The translations under genes and the position numbers were made by a program. From assembly GCF_000236585.1 (NCBI RefSeq), contig NC_017278.1, forward strand, positions 1,488,001 to 1,552,000: a stretch of 64,000 nt of DNA. Direction: 5' to 3'. Every line of letters begins with the position of its first letter. The stretch's first letter is position 1. The notes below the pieces were generated by a model, which was not told the DNA's origin, searched no databases, and worked only from the letters and a program-made list of their open reading frames with translations. Below, in pieces: positions 1 to 38,200 of this stretch. Origin of the DNA: Thermus sp. CCB_US3_UF1 (GTDB lineage Bacteria; Deinococcota; Deinococci; Deinococcales; Thermaceae).

Positions 1-1389
1 TTACGGCTAAGGGACGGGGAGGCCAGGCTCCTGGCGGTGCAGGACGGCTTCCACCGCCGGGGCAGGCGGGTGGAGCTCCTGGGGGAGGCCCGCAAGGCCC
101 TGGGCCTCGCGGGGACCCCCAGCCTCCTGGTGGTCCGCCGCCTGGGCCTACCCCTCCAGCCGGGGGAGGCGGACTACGGGGCCCTGGCCGGGGAGGCCTT
201 CCCCCCGGAGGAGATGGAGAGCATGGACCCCTTCATGCTCATCTACACCTCGGGGACCACGGGCCGGCCCAAGGGTACGGTCCACTACCACGCGGGCTTC
301 CCCCTGAAGGCCGCCCTGGACCTGGCCCTCCTCTTTGACCTCCGGGAAGGGGACCGCCTCTTCTGGTTCACCGACCTGGGCTGGATGATGGGCCCCTGGG
401 CCATCCTGGGAGGGCTCCTTTTGGGGGGGACGGTTTTCCTTTACGACGGGGCCCCCGACCACCCGGGGCCCGGGCGCCTGTGGCGGATGGTGGAGGCCCA
501 CCGCCTCACCCACCTGGGCCTCTCCCCCACCCTGGTGCGGGCCCTCCTTCCCTTGGGGGAGGAACCGGTGCGGGGCCACGACCTCTCCTCCTTGCGGGTC
601 TTGGGCTCCACCGGGGAGCCCTGGAACCTCGAGGCCTACCTCTGGTTCTTCCGGGTGGTGGGGGAGGGGAAGCGGCCCATCGTCAACTACTCTGGGGGCA
701 CGGAGGTCTCGGGGGGGATCCTGGGGAACGTCCTCCTCAAACCCATCAAGCCCATGGGCTTCAACACCGCCGTTCCCGGCATGCGGGCCGCCGTCTTGGA
801 CGAGGCGGGCAGGCCGGTGGTGGGCCGGGTGGGGGAGCTGGCCGTCCTTGGGCCCTGGCCGGGGATGACCCGGGGCTTCTGGCGGGACGAGGCCCGCTAC
901 CTGGAGGCCTACTTCGCCAAGATCCCTGGGGTCTGGGTCCACGGGGACTTCGCCCTTATGGACGAGGAGGGGCATTTCTTCATCCTGGGCCGCTCCGACG
1001 ACACCCTGAAGGTGGCGGGCAAGCGGGTGGGGCCAGCCGAGGTGGAGACCGCGGCCACCGGCCACCCCGCCCTTAGGGAGTGCGCCGCCATCGGCATCCC
1101 TCACCCCGTCAAGGGGGAGGCCATCGTTCTCTTCGCCGTGGTCAAGCCAGGGGTGGAACCCGGGCCCGAGCTGGCGGAGGCGGTGGCCGACCGGGTGGCC
1201 GAGGCCCTGGGGAAGCCCCTCAGGCCGGAGCGGGTCCTTTTCGTGCCCGACCTGCCCAAGACCCGCAACGCCAAGGTGATGCGCCGCCTGATCCGCGCCG
1301 CCTACCTGGGCCAGGACCCCGGGGACCTTTCCGCCCTGGAAAACCCCGAGGCGGTGGAGGCCATCCGGCGGGTGGCCCAAGGGGGTTAG
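1..1389 (+). CDS. AMP-forming acyl/acetyl-CoA synthetase, 5'-truncated by window edge
   Basis: The frame is open from base 1, so only the C-terminal 462 residues are visible. The P-loop-like adenylation motif YTSGTTGRPKG lies at visible residues 82-92. The motifs NYSGGTE and GFWRDE and the hinge-type segment GRSDDTLKVAGKRVGPAEVE follow in family order. The C-terminal KTRNAKVMRR contains the conserved acyl-adenylation lysine (K425). Overall it resembles acetyl-CoA or propionyl-CoA synthetases, which make an acyl-AMP and then an acyl-CoA thioester in the cytoplasm. Substrate cannot be fixed without the missing N-terminus. The next gene starts 4 nt downstream, suggesting co-transcription. A GTG at 37 is an internal codon, not a start. 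Confidence 0.9.
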   Translation, partial: LRLRDGEARLLAVQDGFHRRGRRVELLGEARKALGLAGTPSLLVVRRLGLPLQPGEADYGALAGEAFPPEEMESMDPFMLIYTSGTTGRPKGTVHYHAGFPLKAALDLALLFDLREGDRLFWFTDLGWMMGPWAILGGLLLGGTVFLYDGAPDHPGPGRLWRMVEAHRLTHLGLSPTLVRALLPLGEEPVRGHDLSSLRVLGSTGEPWNLEAYLWFFRVVGEGKRPIVNYSGGTEVSGGILGNVLLKPIKPMGFNTAVPGMRAAVLDEAGRPVVGRVGELAVLGPWPGMTRGFWRDEARYLEAYFAKIPGVWVHGDFALMDEEGHFFILGRSDDTLKVAGKRVGPAEVETAATGHPALRECAAIGIPHPVKGEAIVLFAVVKPGVEPGPELAEAVADRVAEALGKPLRPERVLFVPDLPKTRNAKVMRRLIRAAYLGQDPGDLSALENPEAVEAIRRVAQGG

Positions 1390-32867: not shown

Positions 32868-34148
32868 TCAGCGGGCCGCCAAGGAGGCCAGGAATTCCTT
32901 GTTGCTTTTGGTGCGGCCAAGCCGGGCCAGGAGCATCTCCATGGCCTCCGCCGGATCCATGTCCGCCAACACCTTGCGGAGCAGCCACATCTTGTGCACC
33001 ACCTCCTCACCCAGAAGAAGCTCCTCCCGCCTGGTCCCCGACTTGAGGATGTCGATGGCCGGGAAGATGCGCCGCTCCTCCAGACGGCGGGAGAGGTGGA
33101 GCTCCATGTTGCCCGTGCCCTTGAACTCCTCAAAGATCACGTCGTCCATGCGGCTTCCCGTCTCCACCAAGGCGGTGGCCAGGATGGTGAGGCTCCCTCC
33201 CCCACGGATGTTCCGGGCTGCCCCCAGGAAGCGCTTGGGGAAGTAAAGGGCCGCGGAGTCCAGACCCCCGGAAAGGGTGCGCCCCGTGGGCGGGGTGACC
33301 AGGTTGTTGGCCCGGGCCAGGCGGGTGATGGAGTCCAGGAGGATCATCACGTGCCCTCCCTCCTCCACGATGCGCTTGGCCCGCTCGTGGACGAACTCCG
33401 CCACCCGGATGTGGTTCTGGGGTGGCTCGTCAAAGGTGCTGGCGATGACCTCGGCCCCCTGGACGCTTTCCCGGAAGTCCGTCACCTCCTCGGGCCGCTC
33501 GTCAATCAGGAGGACGATGACCTTGATGTCCGGCTCGTTCTTGAGGACGGCGTTGGCGATCTTCTTGAGCAGGGTGGTCTTCCCCGCCTTGGGCGGGGCC
33601 ACGATGAGCCCCCGCTGCCCCCGGCCAATGGGGGCCAGGAGGTCAATCACCCGGGTGGAAAGCTCGTCCGGCGTGGTCTCCAGACGGATCTGCCGGTCGG
33701 GGAACTGGGGAATGAGCTCGTCAAAACGGGGGCGGTTCTTGGCGGCCTCGGGGTCCAGGTCGTTGACCGCCTCCACCTTGAGGAGGGTGCCGTAGCGCTC
33801 GTTCTCCCGGGGGGGGCGCACCCGGCCCACCACGTAGTCCCCGCTCCGCAGGGCGTACTGGCGGATGAGCCCAGCGGACACGATGGCCACCCGGGACTCC
33901 AGGTTGTAAAGGTTTTCCGTCAGGAAGCCATAGCCGTCGGGGCTTACCTCCAGGTACCCCTTGACCAGCTGGAGGCCCTCCCCTTGGGTCTGCCGTTCCA
34001 GGAGGGCCATAATCAGCTGGTCCTTCTTCATCCGCTTGTAGTTCTCAATGCCCGCCTCCTGGGCCAGGAGGTGGAGCTCCGGCAGGATTTTGGCCGAAAG
34101 CTCCTGGTAGGAAAGGGGCGTTTCCTGGATCTCTGTCTTCTTCCTCAT
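32868..34148 (-). CDS. rho: Transcription termination factor Rho
   Basis: 426 residues. The N-terminal Rho_N helices ([20 protein letters not shown]) and RNA-binding cold-shock-like domain ([13 protein letters not shown]...[10 protein letters not shown]) precede the hexameric ATPase: [18 protein letters not shown] (Walker A), [16 protein letters not shown] and the Q-loop and R-loop region [14 protein letters not shown]. Its ATG overlaps the transaldolase stop (ATGA). It ends in its own strong intrinsic terminator. Confidence 0.97.
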
Positions 34149-34816
34149 GGCTTAACCTTCTCCCAATCTTCCATGAAGCGCTTGAGGCCAATGTCCGTGA
34201 GGGGGTGCCTGAGAAGCTGCTTGAACACCGCGTGGGGCATGGTGGCGATATCCGCCCCCAGGAGGGCCGCCTCGGTGACGTGGCGGGGGTGGCGGATGGA
34301 GGCGGCGATGACCTTGACAGGGAGGTCCTGGACCTGGATGAGCTCCGCGATCTCCCGCAAAAGCTCCCCTCCGTCCCAGGAGATGTCGTCCACCCGGCCC
34401 AGGAAGGGGGAAACGTACGCCGCCCCCGCTCGGGCCGCCAGGAGGGCTTGGTTGGCGGAGAAGATGAGGGTCATGTTGACCGGGATGCCCTCGGCAGCCA
34501 GGCGCTTGCAGGCCTTGAGCCCCTCCTCGGTGGTGGGCAGCTTGACCACGATGTGGGGATGGAGGGCAGCCAGCCGCTTGCCCTCCGCCACCATGGCCTC
34601 GGCCTGCAGGGCCGTCACCTCCGCGGAGACGGGACCGCCCGCCACCTCACAGATGGCCCGTAGGTGGGCGAAAAGCCCCTCCTCGCTCAGCCTCTCCCCC
34701 CGGGCGGCAAACTCCTTGGCCACCAGGGTAGGGTTGGTGGTCACCCCCGAGAGGACGCCCCATGCGGCGATCTCCCGTATCTCCTCCAGGTTGGCGGTAT
34801 CCAGGTAAAGCTCCAT
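34145..34816 (-). CDS. tal: Transaldolase / fructose-6-phosphate aldolase family protein
   Basis: 223 residues, the short (about 220 aa) transaldolase subfamily. It starts [17 protein letters not shown], with [26 protein letters not shown] (Schiff-base lysine), [16 protein letters not shown] and SPFLGRVDD. It belongs to the pentose phosphate pathway or acts as an F6P aldolase. GGAG lies 7 nt before ATG 34816. The frame is open further upstream, but those codons run through the promoter. Confidence 0.93.
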
Positions 34817-34856
34817 GACGGCTCCTTTTGTGCGGGAAGAGGACCGGCTTAACCTG

Positions 34857-34910
34857 AGTCTAGCAGACGCCTGAAGGGCGTTGTCAAGCAAGGAGAAGGG
34901 CTGCTAGCAT
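34857..34910. promoter_or_regulatory. Overlapping divergent promoters of tal-rho and ileS
   Basis: For ileS: TTGTCA (34881-34886), 18-nt spacer, TAGCAT (34905-34910). For tal-rho on the minus strand: TTGACA (34887-34882), 19-nt spacer, TAGACT (34862-34857). The two -35 boxes share five bases of TTGTCAA, so RNA polymerase cannot bind both at once. Confidence 0.6.
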
Positions 34911-34916
34911 AGGCTT

Positions 34917-35215
34917 AGCCGCCAACGGGGGATTTTACCCCAGGGGGGCAAAGCTGTAAAGGCGAGGATGGGGAGAGTACCCCTTTCCAAGAGCCCTAAG
35001 CGAGCCGGGGAGGGTGGGAGCCCGGCGGTGAGGAAAGGCGGGAAGATCACCCCGGAGCCGCGGGAGGAAAAGGGCTAGCCCCTGAGTAATGCCCGCCGGG
35101 TGGCGCCCGTAATAGCGCCCAAAGGAGGGCCTGGAGGGTTGCTTCCAGGAAGCGCGGTGGTACCGCGGAAGCCTTGGGGCTTTCGTCCGCGCCCAAAGGG
35201 CGCGGGCGTTTTCTT
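34917..35215 (+). ncRNA. T-box riboswitch leader of ileS, ATC specifier
   Basis: Stem I begins near 34963 with GGATGGGGAGAGTA. Its distal part has AGCGAGCCGGGG...GGTGGGAGCCCGG. The specifier loop reads GAAGATCACCCCGGAGC with isoleucine codon ATC at 35046-35048. A stem III-like GAGTAATGCCC...GGGTGG follows. The T-box AGCGCGGTGGTACCGCGG is at 35150-35167. A terminator hairpin (35187-35194 with 35198-35205) followed by TTTTCTT completes it. Uncharged tRNA-Ile is expected to favour the antiterminator and raise ileS expression. A small hairpin near 34927-34940 precedes stem I. Confidence 0.93.
35187..35215 (+). terminator. T-box-controlled terminator before ileS
   Basis: An 8-bp GC stem with AAA loop followed by CGTTTTCTT. 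It is the conditional terminator of the ileS T-box leader. Confidence 0.85.
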
Positions 35216-35229
35216 AGGGAGGGATTTGG

Positions 35230-38200
35230 ATGTTCAAGGAAGTCGGCGAGCCCAACTTTCCCCAGATGGAAGAGGAGATCCTGGCCTTCTGGAAGCGGGA
35301 GCGAATCTTTGAAAAGAGCGTGGAAAAGCGCAAGGGCCGCCCCCGCTACACCGTCTATGAAGGTCCCCCCACGGCCAACGGCATGCCCCACGTGGGGCAC
35401 GCCCAGGCCAGGAGCTACAAGGACCTCTTCCCCCGGTACAAGACCATGCGGGGCTACTACGTGCCCCGGCGGGCCGGGTGGGACACCCACGGGCTTCCCG
35501 TGGAGCTGGAGGTGGAAAAGAAGCTGGGGCTGAAGAGCAAGCGGGAGATCGAGGCCTACGGCATCGCGCGCTTCAACGAGGCTTGCCGCCAGTCGGTCTT
35601 CACCTACGAGAAGGAGTGGGAGGCCTTCACCGAGCGTCTGGCCTACTGGGTGGACCTCAAGGGGGCCTACGCCACCCTTCACCCCACCTACATCGAAAGC
35701 CTTTGGTGGAGCCTCAAGAAGCTTTTTGACCGGGGCCTCCTTTACCGCGACCACAAGGTGGTCCCCTATTGCCCGCGCTGCGGCACCCCCCTTTCCTCCC
35801 ACGAGCTTTCCTTGGGCTATAAGGAGATCCACGACCCCTCGGTCTACGTGCGCCTGCCCCTGAAGGACCCAGGGAAGCTGGGCCTGGAGCGGGCCAGCCT
35901 TCTCATCTGGACCACCACCCCCTGGACCCTGCCGGGGAACGTGGCCGCCGCGGTCCACCCCCGCTTCACCTACGCCGCCTTCCCGGTGGAGGGGGAGGCC
36001 CTGATCCTGGAGGAAAGCCTGGGGAAAAAGCTTCTGGGCGAGGCCACCCCCCTCAAGACCTTCTTGGGCCGGGAGCTGGAAGGCCTGGCCTACGAGCCCC
36101 CTTACCCCCAACCGGTGGAACGGGGCTACGTGGTGGTCCTGGCCGAGTATGTAAGCCGCGAGGACGGCACGGGCATCGTCCACCAGGCCCCGGCCTTCGG
36201 CGCCGAGGACCTGGAAACGGGCCGCCGCTACGGCCTGCCTCTCCTCAAAACTGTGGACGAGGAGGGAAAACTTCTGGTGGAGCCTTTTGGAGGCCTCTTC
36301 TTCCGCGAGGCCAACCGGGCCATTCTCAAGGACCTGCGGGCCCGGGGCCTCCTCTTCAAGGAGGAAAGCTACCTCCACAGCTACCCCCACTGCTGGCGGT
36401 GCTCCACCCCCCTGATGTACTACGCCACGGAGACGTGGTTCATCCGCAACACCCTCTTCAAGGAGGAACTCCTAAAGAAGAACGGGGAGATCCGCTGGGT
36501 GCCGCCCCACATCCGGGAGGGCCGGTACGGGGAGTGGCTCAGGAACCTGGTGGACTGGGCCCTAAGCCGCAACCGTTACTGGGGCACCCCCTTGCCCATC
36601 TGGGTCTGCGGGGCCTGCGGCAAGGAGGAGGCCATCGGCAGCTTCCAAGAACTCAGGGAGCGGGCCACGGCCCCCTTACCCGAGCCCTTTGACCCCCACC
36701 GCCCCCAGGTGGACGAGGTGGAGCTAAGGTGCGCCTGCGGGGGCACCATGCGCCGGGTGCCCTACGTGATTGACGTCTGGTACGACTCGGGGGCCATGCC
36801 CTTCGCCTCCTTGCACTACCCCTTTGAGAACCAGGAGGAGTTCCAAGAGGCTTTCCCCGCGGACTTCATCGCCGAGGGCATTGACCAAACCCGGGGTTGG
36901 TTCAACTCCTTGCACCAGCTTGGGGTGATGCTCTTCGGCTCCATCGCCTTCAAGAACGTCATCTGCCATGGCCTCATCCTGGACGAGAAGGGTCAGAAGA
37001 TGTCCAAGTCCAAGGGGAACGTGGTGGACCCCTGGGACATCCTGCGGGAGTTTGGGGCCGACGCCCTTCGGTGGTACATCTACATCTCCGCTCCCCCGGA
37101 GGCCGACCGCCGTTTCGGGCCTAACCTGGTGCGGGAAACGGTGCGGGACTACTTCCTGACCCTTTGGAACGTGTACAGCTTCTTTGTCACCTACGCCAAC
37201 CTGGACCAGCCCGACCTGAAAAACCCGCCCGCCCCCGAAGCGCGGCCCGAGCTGGACCGCTGGTTGCTAGCGCGGATGCAGGACCTGATCCAGAGGGTCA
37301 CCGAGGCCCTCGAGGCCTACGACCCCACCACCAGCAGCCGGGCCATCCGGGACTTTGTGGTGGAGGACCTCTCCCAGTGGTACGTGCGCCGGGGAAGGCG
37401 GCGCTACTGGAAGAACGAGGACCCCCTGGACCGCGAGGCCGCCTACGCCACCCTCTACGAGGCCCTGGTGCTCATCGCCAAGCTCTCCGCCCCCTTTACC
37501 CCCTACCTGGCCGAGGTGCTCTGGCAGAACCTGGTACGCCCGGTATACCCCGAGGCGGAGGAGAGCGTCCACCTGGCCGACTGGCCCGAGGTGGACCCCG
37601 CCCGGGTGGACCAGGAGCTGGTGGCCAAGATGCGGGCGGTGCTCAAGGTGGTGGACCTGGCCCGCTCCGCCCGGGCGCAAAGCGGGGTGAAGACCCGCAT
37701 TCCCCTGCCGCGGCTTTTGGTCACCGCCCCCACCTCCTTGGAGCGGGAGGGCTTACGGCACTTCGCCGCCGAGATTGCCGAGGAGCTCAACGTCAAGGAG
37801 GTGCGGGTTCTGGAACCAGGGGAGGCGGTCCTCTCCTACCGGGTCCTGCCCAACCTGCGCCTCCTGGGCAAGAAGTACGGCAAGCGGGTGCCGGGGATCC
37901 GCGAGGCCCTGCAGAAGGAGGCGGACAGGGTAGCCCGGCAGGTCCTAGCTGGGGAGAAGGTGCCCCTGGAAGTGGAAGGGGAAACCCTCCTCCTGGAGCC
38001 CGAGGAGGTCCTCTTGGAAGCCCAGGCCCCCGAGGGGTACCAGGCGGTGGAGAAGGAGGGGTACGTGGCGGCCCTGGAGGTCCGGGTCACGGAGGCGCTC
38101 CGCCTGGAAGGCCTGGCCCGGGACCTTCTGCGCCACCTGCAGCAGGCCCGGAAGGAGATGGGCCTTAGGGTTTCCGACCGCATCCGGGTGGGCTACCGGG

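Follow-up and report, generated by a model that had tools for sequence, protein, structure and literature searches.

T-box leaders couple gene expression to the charging state of a tRNA: uncharged tRNA stabilises an antiterminator, and charged tRNA lets a terminator form. The leader in front of ileS in Thermus sp. CCB_US3_UF1 shares with the class I T-boxes of the Rfam family RF00230 the full length of the model, the specifier, the UGGU bulge, stems I to III, the antiterminator and the overlapping terminator. It differs from them in being G+C-rich, in scoring below the curated cut-off and in having an extra predicted hairpin before Stem I. As far as the accessible part of the 2008 survey goes (PMC2494555), ile and gly T-boxes are reported in Deinococcus radiodurans, T-boxes occur in one of three Deinococcus/Thermus genomes, and none is listed for Thermus. 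The ile T-box of D. radiodurans belongs to the same phylum and precedes the same gene (isoleucyl-tRNA ligase) as the Thermus leader, which was missed in that part of the survey. The Thermus/Deinococcus group is named among T-box bearers in the accessible text of PMC3766115, and a term search of the accessible main text of PMC7778990 did not find Thermus by name. The Thermus ileS leader is a further ordinary member of this known family, of a kind already reported in Deinococcus.

The window, that is, the whole stretch of 64,000 nucleotides analysed here, had been described in an earlier note that proposed a complete T-box in front of ileS and named a covariance model scan as the check. An E-value covariance scan of 34800-35300 aligned RF00230 to 34956-35193 on the plus strand over model positions 1-219 of 219 (82.1 bits, E 2.4e-18), and the second-best Rfam family reached an E-value of 0.45 only. 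The match is thus significant and full-length, though its score falls short of the curated cut-off (93 bits). With default settings, Rfam scanning of the whole window gave only three tRNAs and no T-box above the cut-off; taking this as T-box absence was discarded once the E-value scan of 34800-35300 had given RF00230. The features of the locus are listed in Table 1.

Table 1. Positions of genes, predicted promoters and leader elements in the window
Feature	Position	Strand	Basis and details
hisS	17152		synthetase in the window
aspS	18433		synthetase in the window
asnS	21711		synthetase in the window
rho, transcription termination factor	32868-34148	-	NCBIfam TIGR00767, 594.4 bits (cut-off 509.45); overlaps fsa by four bases
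fsa (talC-type fructose-6-phosphate aldolase), divergent from ileS	34145-34816	-	NCBIfam TIGR00875, 278.8 bits (cut-off 245.95)
Predicted ileS promoter	34881-34910	+	-35 TTGTCA (34881-34886), 18 bp, -10 TAGCAT (34905-34910), TG before -10
5' hairpin upstream of Stem I	34918-34949	+	folding predictions
Predicted opposing promoter for fsa-rho	34932-34960	-	-35 TTTACA (34960-34955), 17 bp, -10 TAAAAT (34937-34932); predicted start near 34925
T-box Stem I including specifier loop	34962-35058	+	RF00230 alignment, pair coordinates and counts
Specifier codon AUC (isoleucine)	35046-35048	+	sequence; invariant in 38/38 leaders
Stem II	35061-35095	+	RF00230 alignment, pair coordinates
Stem IIA/B region	35097-35109	+	RF00230 alignment; three modelled pairs invariant
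Stem III	35130-35149	+	6/7 pairs changed on both sides
Antiterminator	35152-35192	+	GCGCGG (35152-35157) with CCGCGC (35187-35192), RF00230 alignment; bulge TGGTACC (35158-35164)
Terminator hairpin (35184-35208) and T-rich tail	35184-35215	+	consensus scan; CCGCGC common with antiterminator
ileS, isoleucine--tRNA ligase, 1051 aa	35230-38385	+	NCBIfam TIGR00392, 957 bits (cut-off 621)

With regard to its distribution, exactly one RF00230 match was found in each of the 27 Thermus genomes searched (E <= 1), located before ileS, and 6 of the 27 pass the cut-off. Across Deinococcota, at least one match was present in 97 of 111 genomes at E <= 1e-4, with 14 above the cut-off; the phylum is therefore not poor in T-boxes, which qualifies the earlier statement that they are reported from few of its genes. 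Many Deinococcota relatives have two or three matches, as against one per genome in Thermus. The count of four synthetases in the window (hisS, aspS, asnS and ileS) given in the earlier note was correct, and ileS is indeed the only one of them with a T-box, since an RF00230 search of the source genome at E <= 10 returned no T-box match besides the ileS leader. In six T-boxes of relatives (L016, L018, L025, L065, L067 and L070), the downstream gene aligns to IleRS with 24-26% identity, and these genes, judged from sequence, are probably valS. No valS-like second T-box was found in the 27 Thermus genomes.

The specifier ATC, the T-box sequence and the terminator with its T run, which had been pointed out as hallmark parts, were all recovered in place. 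The T-box sequence GGTGGTACCGCGG contains the bulge TGGTACC, and the terminator stem, CGTCCGCGCCC/GGGCGCGGGCG, is followed by TTTTCTT. A likely ribosome site, GGGAGGG (35217-35223), comes directly after the T tail. The predicted ileS promoter, which has 9 of 12 consensus letters in a scan of 34700-35300 and is conserved in the Thermus leader alignment, places the transcript start at 34917, seven bases past the -10 TAGCAT; this is the very position at which the element had been proposed to begin. In family f4, six leaders (L116, L117, L118, L119, L120 and L121) have long, variable inserts with repeat-like segments at the place of Stem III and retain the T-box core.

Covariation was assessed in 38 leaders (37 distinct) from Thermus, a sister genus, family f4 and Meiothermus, with the structure taken from the cmscan alignment. 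As these rows are related, the counts do not represent independent events. Overall, 92.0% of the cells pair, and 14 of the 47 pairs change on both sides. The covariation score of 0.193 exceeds that of all 500 shuffles (0.083 in shuffles, 0/500 as high) and those of slid structures (0.027-0.086), showing that base pairs are kept by covariation. Further pair types show no excess over shuffles (31 against a shuffle mean of 30.0, with 194/500 as high). Two of the seven modelled pairs of Stem II never form in the 38 leaders, the base of Stem I is badly aligned in three Meiothermus rows, and neither IIA/B nor the outer antiterminator helix varies in its modelled pairs in this set. In wider relatives, the outer antiterminator helix reads GCGCGG/CCGCGC, GTGCGG/CCGCAC or GTTGGG/CCCAAC. 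The scores of 21 of the 27 Thermus genomes, which lie below the Rfam cut-off, are what would be seen if the sequence were retained after switching had been lost, but such decay is extremely improbable in view of the pairs changed on both sides, the invariant specifier and the single match in every one of the 27 genomes.

The AUC in the Stem I loop matches the downstream gene, ileS. The assignment of ATC as specifier in the earlier note is supported both by its place and by its invariance in 27/27 Thermus leaders and 38/38 aligned leaders. A specifier one base earlier, GAU (Asp), was ruled out by the CCATC, AAATC or ATATC found there in wider relatives: the overlapping GAT reading is disfavoured because the base before ATC varies. 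At the other contact site, the T-box core pattern was found in 70 of the 83 ileS upstream regions searched and had no match in the other 13. TGGTACC is present in 67 of these 70; in the remaining three, the pattern matched TGGAGCC and may mark the wrong place. The source genome has 47 tRNA matches. ARAGORN, applied to 30 of these loci, identified one tRNA-Ile(GAT), whose gene ends in A followed by CCA. As the discriminator of this tRNA is A, the UGGU of the bulge (35158-35161), whose last base (the N of UGGN) would pair with it, suits tRNA-Ile(GAU), as judged from these 30 of 47 matches. The loop of the 5' hairpin contains GAU, which could imitate the anticodon of tRNA-Ile and pair with the specifier. 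This idea was dropped because the loops of relatives (ATTATA, AATATA and AGTATA) fit a minus-strand -10 better.

The antiterminator and the terminator are mutually exclusive because both need the strand CCGCGC (35187-35192). Taken alone, the terminator does not exceed chance expectation when 601 bases are scanned with a simple consensus (1 found against 0.6 expected in shuffles), and it is its place and conservation, not the scan score, that make it credible. A comparable hairpin is present in 26 of 27 Thermus leaders (for L052, a different register was chosen by the script), and the Thermus leader alignment shows conserved stem letters. By analogy with well-studied T-boxes, we infer that the leader binds tRNA, senses its charging and terminates transcription in the cell. 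The leader RNA would start near 34917, and its Stem I would bind tRNA-Ile(GAU) via the specifier AUC. With uncharged tRNA, the 3' end ACCA would pair with UGGU in the bulge and hold the antiterminator GCGCGG/CCGCGC, so that RNA polymerase would continue into ileS. With tRNA carrying isoleucine, the bulge pairing would fail and CCGCGC would enter the terminator hairpin, leading to a stop before ileS. The most likely outcome is that uncharged isoleucine tRNA results in more isoleucyl-tRNA synthetase.

In Actinobacteria, T-boxes before ileS are regarded as acting on translation. A leader acting mainly on translation in a class II-like manner, with the hairpin merely affecting the ribosome-binding site, would fit the T tail, which is short and interrupted (TTTTCTT), and the adjoining GGGAGGG. 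However, the Thermus leaders have kept a hairpin with a T-rich tail that uses the antiterminator strand, the terminator stem does not include the ribosome site, and Stem I is of full length here, whereas it is short in actinobacterial class II leaders; we thus consider translational control very unlikely. The earlier proposal of a complete T-box is upheld by the covariance match, the invariant AUC, the two-sided pair changes, the exclusive antiterminator and terminator and the discriminator A of tRNA-Ile(GAU). That a class I (transcriptional) tRNA-Ile T-box riboswitch controls ileS in this Thermus is highly probable, and we put the probability at about 0.93.

A full isoleucine T-box is settled for Thermus, being found in all 27 genomes searched of the genus, of which the Rfam cut-off hides 21. 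Given this loss and the absence of Thermus entries from the accessible part of the 2008 survey, the number of T-boxes in G+C-rich thermophiles is probably underestimated. A heat-stable T-box together with its tRNA would also be handy for structure work.

The start of the leader exhibits a further conserved feature, an opposing promoter-like site that the earlier note had overlooked. The consensus scan of 34700-35300 found exactly two promoter-like sites, one per strand (shuffle mean 0.0). The minus-strand site, with 10 of 12 consensus letters, overlaps the ileS promoter and lies between the predicted start 34917 and Stem I, so the predicted promoter elements are opposed within one short stretch, as in an overlapping divergent pair. 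In Thermus, the predicted fsa-rho -35 and -10 fall within 45 bases of the T-box transcript start, and the Thermus leaders are also conserved at 34915-34962.

For the wider comparison, an ileS match was present in 107 genomes of the phylum, and the region upstream of the gene was collected for 83 of them, the window included. Of these 83 regions, 69 have the pattern TTTACA-16..18-TANNNT on their minus strand; it is found in Thermus (27/27), the sister genus (1/1), other Thermaceae (18/19), f4 (10/12) and f5 (13/20), and in neither f2 (0/2) nor f3 (0/2). Seven of the 14 misses (L121, L130, L135, L137, L140, L144 and L166) keep TATACT or TATAAT with an altered -35 at 17-18 bp; the looser pattern that rescues them was devised after seeing them. 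A relaxed form of the motif turned up in 5 of 1400 single-base shuffles, and 3 of 70 regions carried it on the plus strand. As a control, TTTACA-16..18-TANNNT was present in 2 of 25 other T-box leaders (L011 and L029), taken from outside the ileS locus list and including L014 and L063, which are the same place. These two control leaders may belong to ileS operons; in the L029 genome, the same strand carries an ileS roughly 1.6 kb further downstream. Spacing is 17-18 bp in 68 of the 69 matches (16 in the other) and the spacer sequence varies, the hexamers being preselected by the search. In 27/27 Thermus leaders, the plus-strand start is predicted 8 bp left of the minus-strand one. In f5 regions with a predicted promoter pair, it lies 11-13 bp right of it.

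Among the 83 ileS upstream regions, fsa is found in 61, rho in 20 and both in 4, so that either gene is present in 77. Only short stretches were retrieved. Both genes are missing from six regions, four of which (L046, L119, L134 and L135) reach a contig end and two of which (L131 and L146) do not. In f5, rho occurs without fsa in 15 of 20 regions, and the nine such open reading frames tested all match Rho (NCBIfam). The simplest reading of these arrangements is that the minus-strand site would drive fsa-rho, or only rho.

Alternatively, 34917-34960 may have been kept as an RNA element, namely a 5' hairpin with a conserved loop. This would account for the hairpins with differing stem letters that surround the motif in Thermus, Meiothermus and f4. 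A hairpin around the minus-strand -10 is present in many Thermaceae and f4 leaders, and the mean z over 75 segments from all groups is -1.9, with 37/75 below -2; in the window segment z is -1.3, and the Thermus mean is -2.0 (27 segments). The letters of the hairpin stem differ from genus to genus. Nevertheless, most f5 segments lack a clear hairpin and yet often retain TTTACA-18-TATACT. The nearly constant spacing despite a variable spacer and the divergent fsa or rho in 77/83 regions also argue against an RNA element, which we consider quite unlikely.

If the site is instead an opposing promoter, the closest described arrangement is that of bidirectional bacterial promoters (PMC12825309, accessible part), in which there are also two close opposed promoters and polymerase on one may exclude the other. 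It differs in that the plus start in Thermus, as predicted, is 8 bp left of the minus start, so that the 5' ends would overlap, both starts being predicted only. A search of the open-licence literature found neither a description of overlapping ileS and rho promoters nor a map of Thermus start sites. Competition between the ileS and fsa-rho promoters is possible, and any regulatory coupling of Rho to IleRS is speculative. It is rather doubtful that, in Deinococcota, the ileS T-box leader and fsa-rho are expressed from one overlapping promoter pair that RNA polymerase serves on one side at a time, with the supply of Rho (together with the aldolase in Thermaceae) tied to IleRS by promoter competition and this arrangement kept across much of the phylum. 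The overlapping fsa-rho promoter offers a cheap way to ask whether two essential functions, Rho and IleRS, affect one another through common promoter DNA.

The leader start has 23 matches in the genome at up to three mismatches, against 8 for the reversed pattern, and nothing coherent was seen among the 23 that would make it a repeated genome element. A second promoter-like pair facing fsa (TTGACA-19-TAGACT) is located at 34857-34887 on the minus strand. Its -35 overlaps that of ileS, and the pair is present in most Thermus regions.
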